NCBI GenBank assembly: GCA_944373095.1
Contig: CALWAK010000007.1
Location: forward strand, 1 to 35,105
DNA length: 35,105 nucleotides
Direction: 5' to 3'
Source: an uncultured Bacilli bacterium
Lineage (GTDB): Bacteria; Bacillota_I; Bacilli_A; RF39; UBA660
The notes below the pieces were generated by a model. The model had not been told where the DNA came from, made no database searches, and saw only the letters and a list, made by a program, of their open reading frames with translations. The position numbers and the translations under genes were made by a program. Below, piece by piece: positions 16,374-32,312 of this stretch; within the stretch, counting starts at the first letter, position 1, and each line of letters opens with the position of its first letter.

Positions 16374-19300
16374 TTAAAATAAACTTAATTGAGAAGTTTC
16401 TGGCATATTATCTAAAACCTTTAAAGTTTTTAATTTTTCAATTAATGTTGCACTTAATTTGCCACGCATTTGTAAATCTTCAATACTTATAAATGGCTGA
16501 TTTTTACGCTCCTCAATAATTTTACTAGCAACAGAGTCCCCTAGGCCATCTAAAGTTTTAAAAGGACAAATTAAAGTTCTTCTATCACTATCTAAAACAA
16601 AATTTATACCATCTGATTTTTCTATGTCAATATTACCAAACTTAAATCCTCTAGCAGTAGCTTCTAAAGCTAATTTTAAAGTTTCTAAAACACTACTTTC
16701 TTTATTACTTGCATCATATCCCTTAGACTGTATTTCAAACATTTTCTTTTTAATTGCATCATAACCAGCAACCATAGTTTCTAAATCAAAATCAGTAAAT
16801 CTTGTTGAAAAATAAGTTGTATAATAAACTTCTGGCATATGAACTTTAAACCAAGCTATTCTAAATGCACTAGTTACATAAGCAGCAGCATGAGCTTTAG
16901 GGAACATATATTTTATTTTTCCACAAGAATCAATAAACCAATCCTCTATTCCAGCATCTTTCATTGTTTTTTTATGTTCTTCCCAAGTAGCAGGCTCTTT
17001 TGAAGCTTTTCCTTTACGAACAAATTCCATTATTTTAAATGCTTTTATTGGTTCTAGGCCATGATACATTAAATAAACCATAATATCATCACGACACCCA
17101 ATAACTTCTTTAAATGGCACAATATTATTTTTTATTAATTCTTGAGCATTTCCCAACCAGACATCTGTTCCGTGTGATAAACCAGATATTTTAACTAATT
17201 CACCAAATGTAGTTGGCTTAGTATCATGTAACATACTTATTGTAAAAGGAGTACCAAATTCAGGAATACCTAGTGTTCCAGTTGGACAATTAATTTGTTC
17301 ACTTGAAACGCCAAGTGGTTTTGGACTTAAAAATATTCCCATTGTTTCTTTGTCATCTAAAGGTACTTTTGTAACATCTATCCCTGTCATATCTTGAATC
17401 ATTCTAAGTTGTGTAGGATCAGTATGACCTAAAATATCTAATTTTAATACATCATCTTCGATAGCGTGATATTCAAAATGGGTTGTACGCCAAGCAGCTG
17501 AGATATTCTCTGCTGGATATTGATATGGGGTAAAATCGAATACATCCATATACTCTGGAATAACAACAATTCCACCAGGATGTTGTCCAGTTGTTCTTTT
17601 TACACCTGTACACCCAACTGCTAAACGTTCTATTTCACTATTACGTAAAACTATATTATTATCTTCACACCATTTTTTTACATAACCAAAAGCAGTTTTT
17701 TCAGCTACTGTTCCAACAGTACCTGCACGATAAACATTATTTTCACCAAATAATACTTTAGTATATTCATGAGTTGCTGCTTGATTTAAATCAGAAAAAT
17801 TTAAATCTATATCTGGTACTTTATCGCCGTTAAATCCTAAGAAAGTTGCAAAAGGCATATCTTGTCCATCTTTAGCCATCAAAGTGTTACATTTAGGACA
17901 TTTTTTATCTGGTAAATCATATCCACTTGAATAAGTAGCACCAAGTGAATTACCATTCTCATCTTCAAAGATACTATACTTACAATTGGGACAACGATAG
18001 TGAGCTGATAATGGATTGACTTCAGTAATTCCCATCATTGTAGCAACAAAACTAGAACCTACACTACCACGAGAACCTACTAAAAAACCATCGTCATTAC
18101 TTTTTTTCACTAATTTTTGAGCAATCAAGTAAATTACATCATAATGAGCACCAATAATACCTTTTAATTCTGAGTCAACCCTATCTTGGACAATTTGAGG
18201 CAATGGATCTCCATATAATTCTTTTGCTCTATTTCTTACCATTTCATCAGTTATTTTATCACTATCTTTAATAGTTGGCGCAAAAGGTCTTCCACCAGTA
18301 TCAATAATAACTTCTATATGACTTACCATATCACATATTTTATTAGGATTAGTAACAACTATTTCATACGCCAAATCTTCTCCTAAAAAACTAAACGCAT
18401 CTAGCATTTCTTGGGTAGTCATAAATTGCATATCAGGAACTTTTATTCCCTCTCTATTTAAAGGATGTAATCTCCCATTATTTTTTTGACGTACGATTAT
18501 TTCACGATAAATTCTATCTTCACTACGCAAATTATGAACATCCCCAGTTGCTACAACTAATTTACCTGTTGCTTTAGCAACTCTCACTATTTTCTTTATA
18601 TGATTTTCTAATTCTAGTTCGCTTCGAAAACCACTAGATTCCATTTGTAATAAATGAGACATAGCACTTATCGGCTGAACCTCAATATAATCATAGAATT
18701 GCATCATATTAGATAGTTCTTCATCATCTTTAGTTCTAGCTGCCTCAAATATTTCCCCATTTATACAACCACTACCAAATAATAAATCTTCTCGTATTTC
18801 GGTTAAACATTTTCGAGGAACTTTAGGTTGATCATTTCTAAATAAATATTTTGTATTAGCATAACTAATTATCTTAAACATATTTTTTAGACCAACTCTT
18901 GTTTTAGGTATTATACACATATGAAATGGTACTGAAAACTTAACTAATTCATCAGTATCAATTGATTCATAAATATCTTTTGTTGTTTCAATATTTCGAT
19001 CATATAATGTTTTACACATAATATAAAAGCAATGAGCAGTACCTTCGGCATCATAATCTCCCCTATGATGTTCATCTTCATTCCATGGAACATTTAATTT
19101 TTTAACTAACGTTGATAATTTGTGATTAAACCAATCTGGATAAAGCATTCTTGCTAACCCCATTGTGTCTATAACAGTTGTTTTAAATTCACCTAGATTA
19201 TATTTGCGACATGCTTCACTTACAAAACCAATATCAAACTTGGCATTGTGTGCAACCATAGGACAGTCTCCTACCCAGTTTAAGAAACGTTTAGTAACAT

Positions 19301-20693
19301 TCTCTTCGTTATCTTTATCTTTTAACATTTCATCTGTTATATTAGTTAATTCAACAATCTTTTTAGGTAAAGGTCTATTAGGATTTATAAGTTCATCAAA
19401 ACGATCAATTATTTCCCCTTTTTTTATTTTAACGGCACCAATTTCAATCATTTGATCAACGCCATAATAAAAACCAGTAGTTTCGGTATCAAAAACAACA
19501 AAAGTATCTTCTAATAATTCATAATTATTTTCATTAACATTAAAAACAACATTTACATCATCATTAACTACGTTTAACTCAGTACCATATAAACCTTTAA
19601 ATTTATCTTTTTCTTCTTTTCCTTTATTAAATTTATTTATTGCTTTAAAAGCTTCTGGAAATGATTGACAACCATTGTGATCTGTAATAGCAACTCCACG
19701 ATGACCTAATTTTATTGCAAAATTAACTAAATCTGTAGCACTTATTACACCATCCATTGTAGACATCATAGTATGAGCATGTAACTCTACTCTCTTTACT
19801 TCGGCATCATCTTTAACTAAAGTATCTTTAGAAGAGATATTTTCCATGTTGCGAACACTTAATACTATTTCTTTAGCAAAATTATCATATTCCACATTAC
19901 CATGAATCCGATACCATTTTTTCTCTTTTAAATTACATAACACTTCTTTAAAATCATCATGATCTCTTTTAAATATTTTAGCAATAATACTATTAGTTTT
20001 ATCACTTACTTTAATAGTTATAATATTAATATTTTCCTTTTCTAATGTAACTATTTCACCAAAAATATAAGCTTCTATAATAATATTTTTAGTTTCTCCT
20101 AAAATATCATCTATCTTAGTTACATCACCATCAATATGTTTACCTATAAATACAGGATTAACTTCTTTTTCTACTATTTCATCTTTATGAGAATTATTCA
20201 TCTCTTCTTGAATCTTTTTATTCTCCTCAACATTTATTTTGGTTGTAATATTAATATCTTTAACTCCCAAATTAGACATTTCATTTACAAATGACTTTAC
20301 ATTATCTAAAATAAGTTCTTCTTCAATTTGGGTATTAACTTCTAATATAATTACTCCTTCATCAAATATTACATTATTGTTTTCTAGATTACTTAATGAG
20401 GGCTTTTTTGATATAAATTTATTTAAAACGTATTTAAATACATTAATAATTTCATCTTGACTTAACTTGTCATTATTTAAGTAAACTTTACATTTTGTTT
20501 TTCCATTTATACCCTTTTTAGAATTATTTAAAATTTCATCTAACATAGAAGGTTCGATATATTTTAAGCAATCTAAATATACATCTATTTCGTCATTATT
20601 TTTATCTACAATTACTTTATTAATTTTTAGATTCACATATTTATCAGTATTTTCTATCCCAATACACTTTAAAAATCTTATTAAATTATCCAT
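16374..20693 (-). CDS. polC: DNA polymerase III PolC-type alpha subunit, with proofreading exonuclease
   Basis: A 1439-residue PolC, the usual length in Bacillota. Order: N-terminal domain (1-190), OB fold (about 205-285), PHP domain with intact HAH (305-307) and TDHN (337-340), and an inserted DEDDh exonuclease with FDTETTG (D402, E404), AHNAKFD (D487) and H543/D548. The polymerase core follows, with the zinc-finger segments CPNCKYS and CPKCNTL and the catalytic PDIDLNFSD. PolC is the main leading-strand replicase and carries its own 3'-5' proofreading. It starts three bases after dnaE stops and is last in the ruvA-HAD-ruvB-dnaE-polC run. PolC directly behind DnaE is a compact arrangement. 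Confidence 0.98.
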   Translation of the reverse strand: MDNLIRFLKCIGIENTDKYVNLKINKVIVDKNNDEIDVYLDCLKYIEPSMLDEILNNSKKGINGKTKCKVYLNNDKLSQDEIINVFKYVLNKFISKKPSLSNLENNNVIFDEGVIILEVNTQIEEELILDNVKSFVNEMSNLGVKDINITTKINVEENKKIQEEMNNSHKDEIVEKEVNPVFIGKHIDGDVTKIDDILGETKNIIIEAYIFGEIVTLEKENINIITIKVSDKTNSIIAKIFKRDHDDFKEVLCNLKEKKWYRIHGNVEYDNFAKEIVLSVRNMENISSKDTLVKDDAEVKRVELHAHTMMSTMDGVISATDLVNFAIKLGHRGVAITDHNGCQSFPEAFKAINKFNKGKEEKDKFKGLYGTELNVVNDDVNVVFNVNENNYELLEDTFVVFDTETTGFYYGVDQMIEIGAVKIKKGEIIDRFDELINPNRPLPKKIVELTNITDEMLKDKDNEENVTKRFLNWVGDCPMVAHNAKFDIGFVSEACRKYNLGEFKTTVIDTMGLARMLYPDWFNHKLSTLVKKLNVPWNEDEHHRGDYDAEGTAHCFYIMCKTLYDRNIETTKDIYESIDTDELVKFSVPFHMCIIPKTRVGLKNMFKIISYANTKYLFRNDQPKVPRKCLTEIREDLLFGSGCINGEIFEAARTKDDEELSNMMQFYDYIEVQPISAMSHLLQMESSGFRSELELENHIKKIVRVAKATGKLVVATGDVHNLRSEDRIYREIIVRQKNNGRLHPLNREGIKVPDMQFMTTQEMLDAFSFLGEDLAYEIVVTNPNKICDMVSHIEVIIDTGGRPFAPTIKDSDKITDEMVRNRAKELYGDPLPQIVQDRVDSELKGIIGAHYDVIYLIAQKLVKKSNDDGFLVGSRGSVGSSFVATMMGITEVNPLSAHYRCPNCKYSIFEDENGNSLGATYSSGYDLPDKKCPKCNTLMAKDGQDMPFATFLGFNGDKVPDIDLNFSDLNQAATHEYTKVLFGENNVYRAGTVGTVAEKTAFGYVKKWCEDNNIVLRNSEIERLAVGCTGVKRTTGQHPGGIVVIPEYMDVFDFTPYQYPAENISAAWRTTHFEYHAIEDDVLKLDILGHTDPTQLRMIQDMTGIDVTKVPLDDKETMGIFLSPKPLGVSSEQINCPTGTLGIPEFGTPFTISMLHDTKPTTFGELVKISGLSHGTDVWLGNAQELIKNNIVPFKEVIGCRDDIMVYLMYHGLEPIKAFKIMEFVRKGKASKEPATWEEHKKTMKDAGIEDWFIDSCGKIKYMFPKAHAAAYVTSAFRIAWFKVHMPEVYYTTYFSTRFTDFDLETMVAGYDAIKKKMFEIQSKGYDASNKESSVLETLKLALEATARGFKFGNIDIEKSDGINFVLDSDRRTLICPFKTLDGLGDSVASKIIEERKNQPFISIEDLQMRGKLSATLIEKLKTLKVLDNMPETSQLSLF

Positions 20694-20696
20694 TTA

Positions 20697-23567
20697 CTAC
20701 ACCCCACTTATACTACTTATATTTATTTGATATTTATCAACTCTTCTTGCAACTACCCCATATATTAATACTAAACTATCCTTTTTTAAAGTATTAATTA
20801 AGTAGAAATATTTAGGAAATAAAACAAATTCAATCTCGCCAGTTTCGTCACTACCTTTAACGAAAGCCATTTCATCCCCAGTTTTAGTTTTAATTTTACT
20901 TATTTTATTTATTAATACTACACACTTAACATATTTATTAAAATATTCTTTTATATTATTTATTTTAACAATATCTTTAGCATTATATTTACTTGCTGGA
21001 TGATTACTTATGTAAAATCCAAAACTATCTAGTTCATCTTGCATTAATTTAGTATCACTATATTCTTCCATTTTATTAACTACAGGTTTTTCAATTAAAC
21101 TAACGTCTAAGTCATGAGCAATCTCAGCATATCTAATTGCACTATCAATCATATTTATTAAAGTTTGATGATTTAGTAAAAAAGAATTAAAAACATTAGC
21201 ATTAATTAAACTAATTAATATTTTTTTATTAATACCTAAATTATATGTTCTTTCAACAAAATCAAAAAAATCTTCAAACTTTTTTTCATTTCTAACTTTA
21301 ATAATTGTATTAACACTTTCAATTCCTACATTTTTAATAACCGATAATGGTAAAAGTAAAGAATTATTTTTAAATTTATAAAGTTTATCACTTAAGTTAA
21401 TATCTGGACTTAAAACAACTATATTAAGTTTTTTTGCCTCACTTAAATATTCTTTAGTTTTTTCTTCACTATTTATATTTAAATTTAATATACCACAAAT
21501 AAATTCTTTTTTATAATATGTTTTTAAGTAAGCCATTTGATAACCAATTAATGCATAAGAAACAGAATGAGCTTTATTAAATCCATAATTAGCAAATTTT
21601 TCTATTAAATCATAAACATTAGTCGCTTGTTCCTTTGAATAACCATTTTTCATAGATAGCCCAATAAATCGTTCTTTTTCATTTTTAATAATATCTATTT
21701 TCTTTTTACTCATAGCGCGTCTAATATTATCTGCTTCACTAAACGTGAATTTTGCCATTAATACTAGTATTTGCATTATTTGTTCTTGATAAACAATAAT
21801 TCCATAAGTATCCTTTAAAATAGGTTCTAAACTAGAATCTATGTAAGTAATTTTTTCTTCATTATGCTTTCTTCTTATAAAAGTATCAATATTATTCATT
21901 GGTCCCGGTCTAAAAAGTGCTACTGATGCAACTAAATCACTAAATTTATTAGGTTTTAATTTTTTTATAAGATTTTTCATTCCATTAGATTCAAATTGAA
22001 ATATACCACTAATATCACCATTTAAAAATAAATCAAATACTTTACTATCATCTAATCTTATATTATTTAATTTAATCTTATTTGGAATTAAATCTAGAAT
22101 ATTATGAATAATAGATAAGTTAGATAATGATAAAAAATCCATTTTTAGTAAACCTAATTCTTCAAGATAGTTCATAGTAACTCCAGTTATCAAAGTATCT
22201 TTATTATCTATAACGGGAATTATATCATCAAGTTGGGTACTTGATATAACAACTCCAGCAGCATGGATAGAAGTATGCCTTTTTAAATTTTCTAAATGCA
22301 TACTTATTTTATAAACATTACTTAAATCAGAATTATATTTTAATAAACTTAATATTTTATTATTATTTAAATTTTCTTTTAAACTTAATTTAGAATCTAT
22401 AAGTTTTGTTAATTTATCTATTTCACTACTTTCAACGCTTAATACTTTAGCAACATCTTTTAAAACTTGGCGAGAAGCAAGTGTTCCATAAGTTAAAATT
22501 GGTGCTACTTTATCATACCCATATTTATTTCTAACATAATTAACAATATCATTTCTTTTAGAATCTTCAAAATCAATATCTATATCTGGCATTGTAATAC
22601 GACTAGGATTTAAAAAACGTTCAAATAGTAAATTATATTTAACAGGATCTATTTCTGTAATACCTAAGCAATAGCTTACTAATGAACCAGCAGCAGATCC
22701 TCTTCCTGGACCAACTAGACAGTTATTTTTTTTAGCATATAATACATAATCATATACTATCAAAAAATAATCAATAAACCCCATATTTTCAATAACTTTT
22801 AATTCATAATTTAATCTGTCTTGATAAGTTTTAGTTATAAGACCATTTAATCTTTTATATAATCCTTTATTACATAATTGGAATAAAAAAGTTTTACTAT
22901 CTACATCTTTGTTATAAATTGGTATATATCTTTTGTTTTTTTCTATTTCTATATTAATATCTTCTACAAATTTGTTAATTAAATCAATATCATCTTCGGT
23001 TAAATCATTTTGATAATAATAATAAGTTTTATCAATTAACTCTTTATTATTAATTTTATATAATATTTCTAAATAATTAATATCATTTTTGGCAAAAGAA
23101 ACCATTTCATTAATATAAACTATATTATTAGTAATTAATAAAGCGTTTCTTTTTTGATAATCATTTTTATAACTAATAAAGATATTAGAACTAATATCTT
23201 TGATAAAACTATCATAATAATTAAAGGGAATAACTATTTTTAAATCTTTATTATAAGTTTTTATATCTTCTTTAGATAATGTATTATTGCTAATTTTAGT
23301 ATTTATTTTTAATAAATTTTTATATCCATTATAATTTTTAGCATATAAATATATTATATTATTATCTATAAATACTTTTAAACCTATAACAGGTTTAATA
23401 TTATTTTTAATACATAAATCATAAAATTCTAAAGAACTTGATAAATTATCATCTAAAATACCTATGCAATTTAATTTATTTTGTAATGCAAAAGAAATTA
23501 AATCAGGTATTTTAATTAAACTAGATAATAAAGTATAATCCGTTTTCACCCCAAGTGGTATATACAT
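20697..23567 (-). CDS. dnaE: DNA polymerase III alpha subunit DnaE
   Basis: A 956-residue C-family polymerase. Core motifs are GPGRGSAAGSLVSYCLGIT, MPDIDIDFEDSKR (catalytic aspartates), FRPGPMNNIDTFIRRKH, YGIIVYQEQIMQI and NYGFNKAHSVSYALIGYQMAYLK. An OB fold sits near the end (VKCVVLINKISKIKTKTGDE). The PHP domain has lost its metal ligands: YIPLGVKTDYTLL stands where an HxHxxYS pattern is expected, and ILDDN where TDHN is expected. It is also shorter than typical DnaE proteins of about 1100 residues. Probably the error-prone primer-extending polymerase working with PolC. Start taken as ATG 23567, after SD GGGGGT; an upstream in-frame ATG at 23582 overlaps that SD. Confidence 0.95.
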   Translation of the reverse strand: MYIPLGVKTDYTLLSSLIKIPDLISFALQNKLNCIGILDDNLSSSLEFYDLCIKNNIKPVIGLKVFIDNNIIYLYAKNYNGYKNLLKINTKISNNTLSKEDIKTYNKDLKIVIPFNYYDSFIKDISSNIFISYKNDYQKRNALLITNNIVYINEMVSFAKNDINYLEILYKINNKELIDKTYYYYQNDLTEDDIDLINKFVEDINIEIEKNKRYIPIYNKDVDSKTFLFQLCNKGLYKRLNGLITKTYQDRLNYELKVIENMGFIDYFLIVYDYVLYAKKNNCLVGPGRGSAAGSLVSYCLGITEIDPVKYNLLFERFLNPSRITMPDIDIDFEDSKRNDIVNYVRNKYGYDKVAPILTYGTLASRQVLKDVAKVLSVESSEIDKLTKLIDSKLSLKENLNNNKILSLLKYNSDLSNVYKISMHLENLKRHTSIHAAGVVISSTQLDDIIPVIDNKDTLITGVTMNYLEELGLLKMDFLSLSNLSIIHNILDLIPNKIKLNNIRLDDSKVFDLFLNGDISGIFQFESNGMKNLIKKLKPNKFSDLVASVALFRPGPMNNIDTFIRRKHNEEKITYIDSSLEPILKDTYGIIVYQEQIMQILVLMAKFTFSEADNIRRAMSKKKIDIIKNEKERFIGLSMKNGYSKEQATNVYDLIEKFANYGFNKAHSVSYALIGYQMAYLKTYYKKEFICGILNLNINSEEKTKEYLSEAKKLNIVVLSPDINLSDKLYKFKNNSLLLPLSVIKNVGIESVNTIIKVRNEKKFEDFFDFVERTYNLGINKKILISLINANVFNSFLLNHQTLINMIDSAIRYAEIAHDLDVSLIEKPVVNKMEEYSDTKLMQDELDSFGFYISNHPASKYNAKDIVKINNIKEYFNKYVKCVVLINKISKIKTKTGDEMAFVKGSDETGEIEFVLFPKYFYLINTLKKDSLVLIYGVVARRVDKYQINISSISGV

Positions 23568-23589
23568 AATATTTACCCCCATTTGCTAA

Positions 23590-30286: not shown

Positions 30287-30311
30287 AAAAAAAGATATTA
30301 TAATAATCTTT
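30287..30311 (-). terminator. Terminator of the MATE-kinase fusion gene
   Basis: AAAGAT (30306-30311 on the minus strand) pairs with ATCTTT (30291-30296), with a small inner stem, then seven T. It overlaps the stop codon. Confidence 0.65.
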
Positions 30312-32280
30312 ACTTACTAAGATTAATCACAATATCTTTAATTATTTCTGCCGTCTTTTTAACGCCTAATTTATCTACATTAAACGAATAATCGTAATTA
30401 TCTAATTGTTTCCATTCTTCATTAGTATAATATTTATAATGTTTTTCTCTTTGCTTATTAATTTTTTCTATTTCTTTTAAAGCATTTTTCTTGTCTAATC
30501 CATAATATTTAATAGCTCTTTTTTCTTTGTCTTTATCACTACTATATAAGAATATACGTACTACATTTTTATTATTTTTTAATACATAATTAGCACATCT
30601 TCCTACTATTACACAAGGAGTATTTTTAGATAATTTTTTAATAGTTTGAGACTCTGCTACAAATAATTCATTATCATTATTATAATAAATATTTCCTCTT
30701 TTAGTAATTTTTTGCTCGTTTTCATTAATGTAATCTTCAGTTAATCCAGTATTGCTTGCAGTAATAGTAATTATTTCTTTATCATAAAAATTTGCATTTA
30801 ATAAATTAGCTAATATTTTTCCAACATATCTACCACCAGAACCATACTCTCTATTAATAGTTATAATTAATTTACTAGATGATTCTTTAGGAGCAATATC
30901 ATTAAATACAATACTATTTTCCTCTTCTTCTTTATTTTTTATCTTAACATATTCAGAATTAAAGATAAATATAACAATAATAAAGCAAATAAAATCCGCT
31001 AATGGACCTGCATATATTGCACCGTATAATCCAAAATATCTACTAAAGATTAACGCTAATGGTATAAATAAAATTATTTGTCTGATAAAAGATACTGCAG
31101 TAGACTTCTTTACATTCCCAAAAGATTGTATAACTACACTTGAAGTCATTTCTAAAGCATTTACCATACTAACTAATAAAAATATTCTACAAAAGTCTGT
31201 TGCAAATTTTATATATAAAGCATTATCTGAACTACCAAAAATACTTACTATTTGTTTTGGAAAAACTAAGAAAATTACATTAAATATAAACCCTATTGTA
31301 AAATTAATAATTAAAACTTTTTTTAATGTTTCCCTAACTCTTCCATATTTACCAGCACCATAATTATAGCCAATTATTGGTTGTGCTCCTATTGCAACAC
31401 CTAAAACAGATGATATATAAAGTCCAGTAACTTTAGAAATAACACCATAAACAGATAAAGGTATATCTGCTCCATATTCACTTAAAGCTCCATATTTGGT
31501 CATAATATTATTCATAAAAATAAATAATACTAAAATAGTCATTTGAGTAATAAAACTAGAAACACCATAACTTAAAGTCTTAATAATTGTTTTTCTTGGT
31601 AAGAAATCCTTTTTATCTAATTTAAAACTCTTTATTTTAGGTATATATATAATTGCAATAATAAACGAAATAACTTGTCCAATTACAGTTGCTAAAGCAC
31701 CACCTTCAACTCCCATATTAAACAACATAATAAAAATATAATCTAATATAATGTTTAATATTGCTCCTATTACTAAACAAAACATTGAATACTTTGGTGA
31801 ACCATCAGCTCTAATTATAGATGATAACGCAGAATAAATAATCATAAATGGTGCACCAATAACAATTATTTTTCCATAGGCCATTGCATATGGCATAACA
31901 CTTTCAGTACAACCAAAAAATTTAATTAATGTTGGCAAAAAAACATAACTTAAAATTCCAAATAACAATGAAACAAAAATTATAGTTGTAATAGTACCAC
32001 CAACAGATTTTTTAGCCTCATCCTTCTTGCCTTCACCTAATTTTAAACTAAGTTCTGCCGCACATCCATTGCCTAAAATAGACGCTATTGCATTACACAT
32101 TATAACAAGAGGAAATATTATATTAGTAGCAGCATTTCCTAAATATCCCACACCTTGTCCTATAAAAATCTGATCAACTATATTATATACAGAATTTATA
32201 AGCATACTAATTATACAAGGTATTGAAAAAGCTATAATTAGTTTACTTATTTTTTCTGTACCTAAATCTAATTTTTTCAT
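30310..32280 (-). CDS. MATE-family transporter fused to a cytidylate-kinase-like domain
   Basis: A 656-residue two-part protein. Residues 1-445 are a complete MATE multidrug/cation antiporter (about 12 TM helices) in two halves, each starting with family motifs (ISMLINSVYNIVDQIFIGQGVG; VTGLYISSVLGVAIGAQPIIGYNYGAG). After a charged linker (446-468), residues 470-655 match the cytidylate-kinase-like family (PF13189 kind): LIITINREYGSGGRYVGKILA with P-loop-like GSGGRYVGK (480-488), FYDKEII, and VIVGRCANYVL (557-567). There is no frameshift between the parts and one stop. The start is the ATG at 32280 with SD AAAGGTG; the longer GTG frame from 32322 would begin inside the promoter. The soluble domain would face the cytoplasm. 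Substrate and kinase activity are unknown. Confidence 0.88.
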   Translation of the reverse strand: MKKLDLGTEKISKLIIAFSIPCIISMLINSVYNIVDQIFIGQGVGYLGNAATNIIFPLVIMCNAIASILGNGCAAELSLKLGEGKKDEAKKSVGGTITTIIFVSLLFGILSYVFLPTLIKFFGCTESVMPYAMAYGKIIVIGAPFMIIYSALSSIIRADGSPKYSMFCLVIGAILNIILDYIFIMLFNMGVEGGALATVIGQVISFIIAIIYIPKIKSFKLDKKDFLPRKTIIKTLSYGVSSFITQMTILVLFIFMNNIMTKYGALSEYGADIPLSVYGVISKVTGLYISSVLGVAIGAQPIIGYNYGAGKYGRVRETLKKVLIINFTIGFIFNVIFLVFPKQIVSIFGSSDNALYIKFATDFCRIFLLVSMVNALEMTSSVVIQSFGNVKKSTAVSFIRQIILFIPLALIFSRYFGLYGAIYAGPLADFICFIIVIFIFNSEYVKIKNKEEEENSIVFNDIAPKESSSKLIITINREYGSGGRYVGKILANLLNANFYDKEIITITASNTGLTEDYINENEQKITKRGNIYYNNDNELFVAESQTIKKLSKNTPCVIVGRCANYVLKNNKNVVRIFLYSSDKDKEKRAIKYYGLDKKNALKEIEKINKQREKHYKYYTNEEWKQLDNYDYSFNVDKLGVKKTAEIIKDIVINLSK

Positions 32281-32312
32281 AAACACACACCTTTCTTTCA
32301 ACTGCAAAAGTA

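Follow-up and report, generated by a model that had tools for sequence, protein, structure and literature searches.

The gene at positions 30310-32280 on the reverse strand encodes a 656-residue protein in which a MATE transporter is joined to a cytidylate-kinase-like domain (Cytidylate_kin2, PF13189). The best explanation of this arrangement, to which we assign a probability of about 50%, is a MATE exporter that carries a cytoplasmic ligand-binding regulatory module, a reading built on sequence comparison and on analogy with other transporters. The PF13189 domain is probably an on-board sensor or accessory enzyme of the transporter and not a CMP kinase, because it is repeatedly fused to, or found adjoining, unrelated transporters. 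A preliminary description of the same DNA had suggested that a cytoplasmic domain of this kind might regulate transport or modify the substrate, and this suggestion is supported by the analysis below.

The window, which is the whole stretch of 35,105 nucleotides that was analyzed, is one entire contig of a 1.08-Mb MAG that is ~90% complete. All features of the fusion gene lie on the reverse strand. It starts with ATG at 32280, 9 nt downstream of a ribosome-binding site read from the sequence as GAAAGG (32290-32295), and stops at 30310-30312; a GTG 42 nt farther upstream is a weaker alternative start. The gene is supported by its open frame, by Pfam matches, and by retention of the fusion in relatives. 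The MATE transporter domain spans aa 5-445 (30946-32268; MatE and TIGR00797 matches, phmmer, Foldseek) and the Cytidylate_kin2 domain aa 471-656 (30313-30870; Pfam, domain model, Foldseek), and the linker between them, aa 446-470 (30871-30945), was delimited by low model confidence and unconstrained sequence. Both halves had been described as lying in one frame; they do form a single open reading frame with Pfam matches to MatE and PF13189, and the domain boundaries given at that time were correct to within a few residues. Structure prediction for the full protein, which had been recommended as a check, gave an AlphaFold2 model with a mean pLDDT of 85, a MATE fold, and a flexible linker of ~30 aa, with pLDDT below 50 at residues 456-461. 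The position of the two domains relative to each other in this model is uncertain (pTM 0.69). Elsewhere in the window, genes for two DNA polymerase III alpha subunits, polC (1439 aa) and dnaE (961 aa), formed an unusual tandem with a 3-bp gap (16374-23582, reverse strand), and a UPF0236-family protein, which we take to be an ISLre2-type transposase, was truncated by the contig end (2-1141, forward strand).

Analysis of the transporter half showed two MatE repeats (PF01554; E 1.2e-42, 145.7 bits) above the curated Pfam cutoff and a match to the NCBIfam model TIGR00797 (matE) of 188 bits against a cutoff of 147.4. Among the best solved relatives, phmmer placed DinF-BH first (4lz6/5c6o, E about 3e-63) and PfMATE next, and in Foldseek the model matched both with a TM of ~0.88 of target. 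The acidic cation-coupling residues of the N-lobe that characterize MATE proteins were present. Asp36 (codon at 32173-32175) and Asp180 (codon at 31741-31743), identified from alignment A1 and pairwise alignments, were invariant in 35 of 35 fused proteins in A1; pairwise, Asp36 aligned with Asp40 of DinF-BH and Asp41 of PfMATE, and Asp180 with Asp184 of PfMATE. The DinF-BH Asp40 position reads Asn in the 5c6n chain. Given the fold match and the conserved coupling aspartates, the transporter half is very likely a working cation-coupled MATE, as judged from sequence and model. DinF-BH itself (BH2163 of Bacillus halodurans, PDB 4lz6/5c6n), a DinF-type MATE, is ~30% identical and shares the coupling aspartate, but it lacks the C-terminal soluble domain that the fusion protein has.

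Matches of the MATE half to the PRK09575, FepA, and MepA profiles were all below their cutoffs, so no substrate can be named for the pump. Assignment of a substrate from neighboring genes was also rejected, because nothing was conserved in the neighborhood of the fused gene across its relatives. This lack of conserved neighbors indicates that the fused domains are a self-contained unit. Single loci offered hints only: one fused gene (L007) adjoined a MarR gene, another (L003) a rubrerythrin gene, and a third had a RelA/SpoT-domain gene (L008:4237-4887) lying 113 bp upstream.

The C-terminal half matched the complete PF13189 profile (aa 472-637, profile positions 1-176 of 176) with an E-value of 5e-43 and 147.8 bits against a gathering score of 28, and it carried the family motif ITIxRxxGSxGR as ITINREYGSGGR at 473-484. 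Structure prediction from alignment A2 was run without seven rows of plasmid-record origin. Modeled alone, the domain had a pLDDT of 92.6, and Foldseek returned 3hdt and 3fdi first, followed at E-values of 1e-5 to 1e-7 by shikimate and cytidylate kinases, which places the domain in the NMP-kinase fold. The proteins 3hdt, from Clostridium symbiosum, and 3fdi, from Eubacterium ventriosum, belong to the same PF13189 family and fold at 27-37% identity, but they are stand-alone soluble proteins, whereas the domain studied here is joined to a MATE.

Canonical cytidylate kinase (Cmk, PF02224) has the NMP-kinase fold in common with the PF13189 domain and is a distant profile match, but the features that define it are missing. 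The PF02224 profile in Pfam had no match in the fusion protein, and the NCBIfam model for archaeal-type CMP kinase, TIGR02173, scored 26.8 bits, far below its cutoff of 102.1. When the family was aligned by hhalign to four true cytidylate kinases, IITINREYGSGGRYVGK was aligned with IAIDGPAGAGKGTIAK, which puts R477 at the first glycine of the P-loop, G483 at the Walker A lysine, and Y485 at the threonine. The motif R477-E-Y-G-S-G-G-R484 (30829-30852) stands where the Walker A P-loop would be, according to this alignment and to residue counts over 102 aligned PF13189 domains. There was no Walker A GxxxxGK[ST] in the family: the lysine column was glycine in 102 of the 102 domains and the first glycine was arginine in 101. 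The aspartate of the CMP-binding GRD was also absent, the window protein reading GRC, with cysteine in 79 of the 102. With three defining features failing and the fold present, the PF13189 half is not a canonical cytidylate kinase. The GSGGRYVGK that the preliminary description called P-loop-like does occur (aa 480-488) without being a Walker A motif; the lysine column is G483, and the column of K488 is lysine in just 39 of the 102 domains. Its assignment of residues 470-655 to the cytidylate-kinase-like group holds for PF13189 and fails for the true cytidylate kinases, and the catalytic residues whose conservation was to be checked, the Walker A lysine and Ser/Thr and the GRD aspartate, are absent from the kinase-like half.

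Other pocket positions were strongly conserved. Eight conserved pocket residues are non-canonical (R477, S481, G483, R561, R611, Y615, W623, and Y629). Besides the two P-loop columns above, counts over the 102 domains were 100 for G480, 96 for S481, 91 for R561, and 95 each for R611, W623, and Y629, and a conserved lid-like motif, D/N608-K-x-R611-xx-Y/H614-Y615, was also seen in the family. Such strong conservation about a phosphate loop that has been rebuilt suggests that the family keeps a common ligand, and it does not suggest ordinary kinase chemistry.

Full-length matches of 59-81% identity showed the same fusion in independent MAGs. The nearest relatives of the protein were from uncultured Bacilli/Tenericutes MAGs; of 146 genomes sampled from its order, about 37 carried both halves, some in fragments, and the fusion extended to Clostridia and to further families of Bacilli. 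The spacing between the MATE and PF13189 parts was 23-36 aa in all fused relatives. Relative to the fused protein at L003, dN/dS was ~0.11 for the MATE, ~0.18 for the PF13189 part, and ~1.1 for the linker. Thus, both halves are under purifying selection and the linker is not, which indicates that both domains are maintained and that the linker is merely a spacer. The possibility that a sequencing or assembly error merged two genes, which the preliminary description had raised against its own finding, might be considered because the contig comes from one MAG and the two families mostly occur apart. However, fusions with a similar linker recur in dozens of independent genomes from two classes, with selection acting across both halves, and the artefact reading was ruled out by these relatives; its probability is negligible.

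How often the fusion arose was estimated from quickly built phylogenetic trees in which the outliers had long branches. On the PF13189 tree all 25 MATE-fused domains used formed two clusters, a pattern that a single origin could explain. The MATE tree was sharper, and its starred branches require several changes. Its main clade contained the window protein and also two unfused proteins (L253 and L254), which are read as losses of the domain on the basis of their placement; that these closely related MATEs do without PF13189 indicates that the domain is dispensable. A second fusion (L134 and L255) was sister to adjacent MATE/PF13189 gene pairs of Lachnospira and Roseburia, and a third (L244) lay elsewhere on the MATE tree. 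The best reading of these quick trees suggests at least three separate MATE-PF13189 fusions. Adjacent pairs turned fusions are classical Rosetta-stone evidence of joint function, and here they argue that the two parts function together.

The association of PF13189 with transporters was surveyed across some 100 Bacilli and Clostridia loci and in named genomes. A stand-alone PF13189 gene followed a MATE gene by 13 bp in Lachnospira eligens and Roseburia, an SLC13-type permease in Ruminococcus albus, and an amino-acid ABC transporter operon in Treponema; in Fusobacterium a single small gene separated it from an RND pump. At least eight genomes had PF13189 fused to DUF6198 (L141; split in L133). 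Three other transporter partners occurred in one genome apiece: NCS1 (L138), a CPA2 exchanger (L140, where PF13189 comes after the exchanger core), and MFS (L245). A search of family relatives confirmed the DUF6198 fusion but did not find the NCS1 and CPA2 fusions again. Genes adjoining PF13189 encoded MATE, BacA/UppP, VCA0040-like, VTT, CitMHS, and RND proteins, ABC exporters, and P-type ATPases, and MarR or TetR genes adjoined several of the associated transporters. The pairing of two families that normally belong to separate proteins had at first seemed odd; it appears less so now that PF13189 proves to be recurrently fused to or adjoining several transporter families. By hydropathy, at least six TM helices were predicted for 21 of 86 same-strand PF13189 neighbors; among other operonic genes the count was 33 of 386 (p 1e-4). 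This set of neighbors includes loci chosen for long frames. In an unselected set, 17 of 76 PF13189 genes had a close neighbor with at least five TM helices; given the 59 without one, transporter control would be just one role of several.

Several further contexts were observed in the survey. BacA/UppP, which handles undecaprenyl phosphate, was beside PF13189 in L155 (Pfam) and beside stand-alone PF13189 genes in L160, L166, L169, and L176 (by inspection of the sequences). Stand-alone PF13189 genes were also beside VCA0040-like (L117) and VTT/DedA (L120 and L191) genes, with a similar case in L121. Proteins that handle undecaprenyl phosphate are therefore a possible sub-theme of the neighbors. 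One fusion partner, a biotin carboxylase (L246:3531-5591), was unrelated to transport. A divergent branch of ~320-360 aa (L144-L151) had an additional C-terminal part and was directly followed by a ~180-aa gene, in L146 a phosphoribosyltransferase.

In the mechanism proposed, the gene would encode a MATE exporter coupled to Na+ or H+, with PF13189 on its C-terminal tail, predicted to be cytoplasmic on the basis of a MATE core of ~12 helices with both ends inside. Within the NMP-kinase fold, the phosphate loop appears to have been rebuilt as RxxGSxG without a lysine. A ligand that contains phosphate, perhaps a nucleotide or another phosphorylated metabolite, would bind this loop and the conserved arginines, most likely without canonical phosphoryl transfer. 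A resulting change in shape, or altered contact with the transporter, could then tune transport through the flexible linker, the direction of regulation being one that we infer.

The main rival reading makes PF13189 an atypical but active kinase of small molecules, whose target would be either the compound being transported or a metabolite delivered by the pump, so that catalysis and transport would be linked. The shared fold with NMP and shikimate kinases, the conservation under selection of the lid-like motif (608-615) and of the pocket arginines, and the fact that some partners carry small molecules are all consistent with this, and catalysis might be possible without the P-loop lysine if R477 or R484 substituted for it. 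Yet the Walker A lysine and Ser/Thr are absent family-wide, and the cargo of the partners is chemically unrelated (multidrug, cations, lipid carriers, and citrate), so that no single substrate fits; this diversity argues against a single kinase modifying each cargo, and we consider such an enzyme unlikely. Less likely again is a scaffold, or a stability or assembly domain, whose role is independent of any ligand. Promiscuous partners and a flexible linker would suit it, but a scaffold would not need pocket residues that are among the most conserved in the family (R477 in 101, G483 in 102, and R611 in 95 of 102). It is improbable that PF13189 here stands in for CMP kinase in an organism without cmk and was joined to the pump by chance. 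The ~90% complete genome of the window did lack a PF02224 cytidylate kinase, and its sole PF13189 copy is the one in the fusion, but the lysine and the GRD aspartate that a CMP kinase would call for are not conserved in PF13189. Furthermore, among the 146 genomes of the order, 22 had cmk, 37 the fusion, 9 both, and 96 neither, and the observed co-occurrence of 9 compares with 5.6 expected (p 0.11). The presence of the fusion does not follow the absence of cmk in these genomes, and there is no complementary pattern. The replacement idea was rejected, as most genomes of the order are without cmk whether or not they have the fusion. The 22 strong full-length PF02224 matches came from a set of genomes most of which are >90% complete.

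Beyond the regulatory module proposed for this one MATE exporter, a wider reading can be offered tentatively, in which PF13189 would be a general lysine-less, P-loop-derived sensor of bacterial transporters, analogous to RCK and CBS domains and responsive to a cytoplasmic ligand. The many independent pairings with MATE, MFS, NCS1, CPA2, DUF6198, and undecaprenyl-phosphate recycling proteins lend themselves to this reading, which we hold with less assurance than the narrower one. Within the literature collection that was searched, there was no paper on the function of PF13189, on that of 3hdt or 3fdi, or on a MATE/cytidylate-kinase fusion. The fusion architecture may well be catalogued already in domain databases; the PF13189 fusions to DUF6198, MFS, NCS1, and CPA2 and the adjacency to varied transporters are new here. 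If the sensor reading is true, a shared regulatory domain would provide a handle on the gating of efflux by metabolic state in anaerobic gut bacteria, and a function would be available for a large family labelled cytidylate kinase-like despite its missing kinase lysine, a label unfit for metabolic annotation. A ~190-residue domain with solved relatives makes the idea directly testable.

Cytoplasmic domains that regulate transporters include RCK/TrkA domains on CPA2 and Trk systems, CBS domains on OpuA and CLC proteins, and universal-stress domains on antiporters; to our knowledge, no on-board regulatory domain dedicated to multidrug-type MATE exporters is well known. The folds of these established domains are unrelated to that of PF13189, for which regulation is putative, but the working principle proposed would be alike, a secondary transporter whose tail bears a ligand-binding soluble domain.
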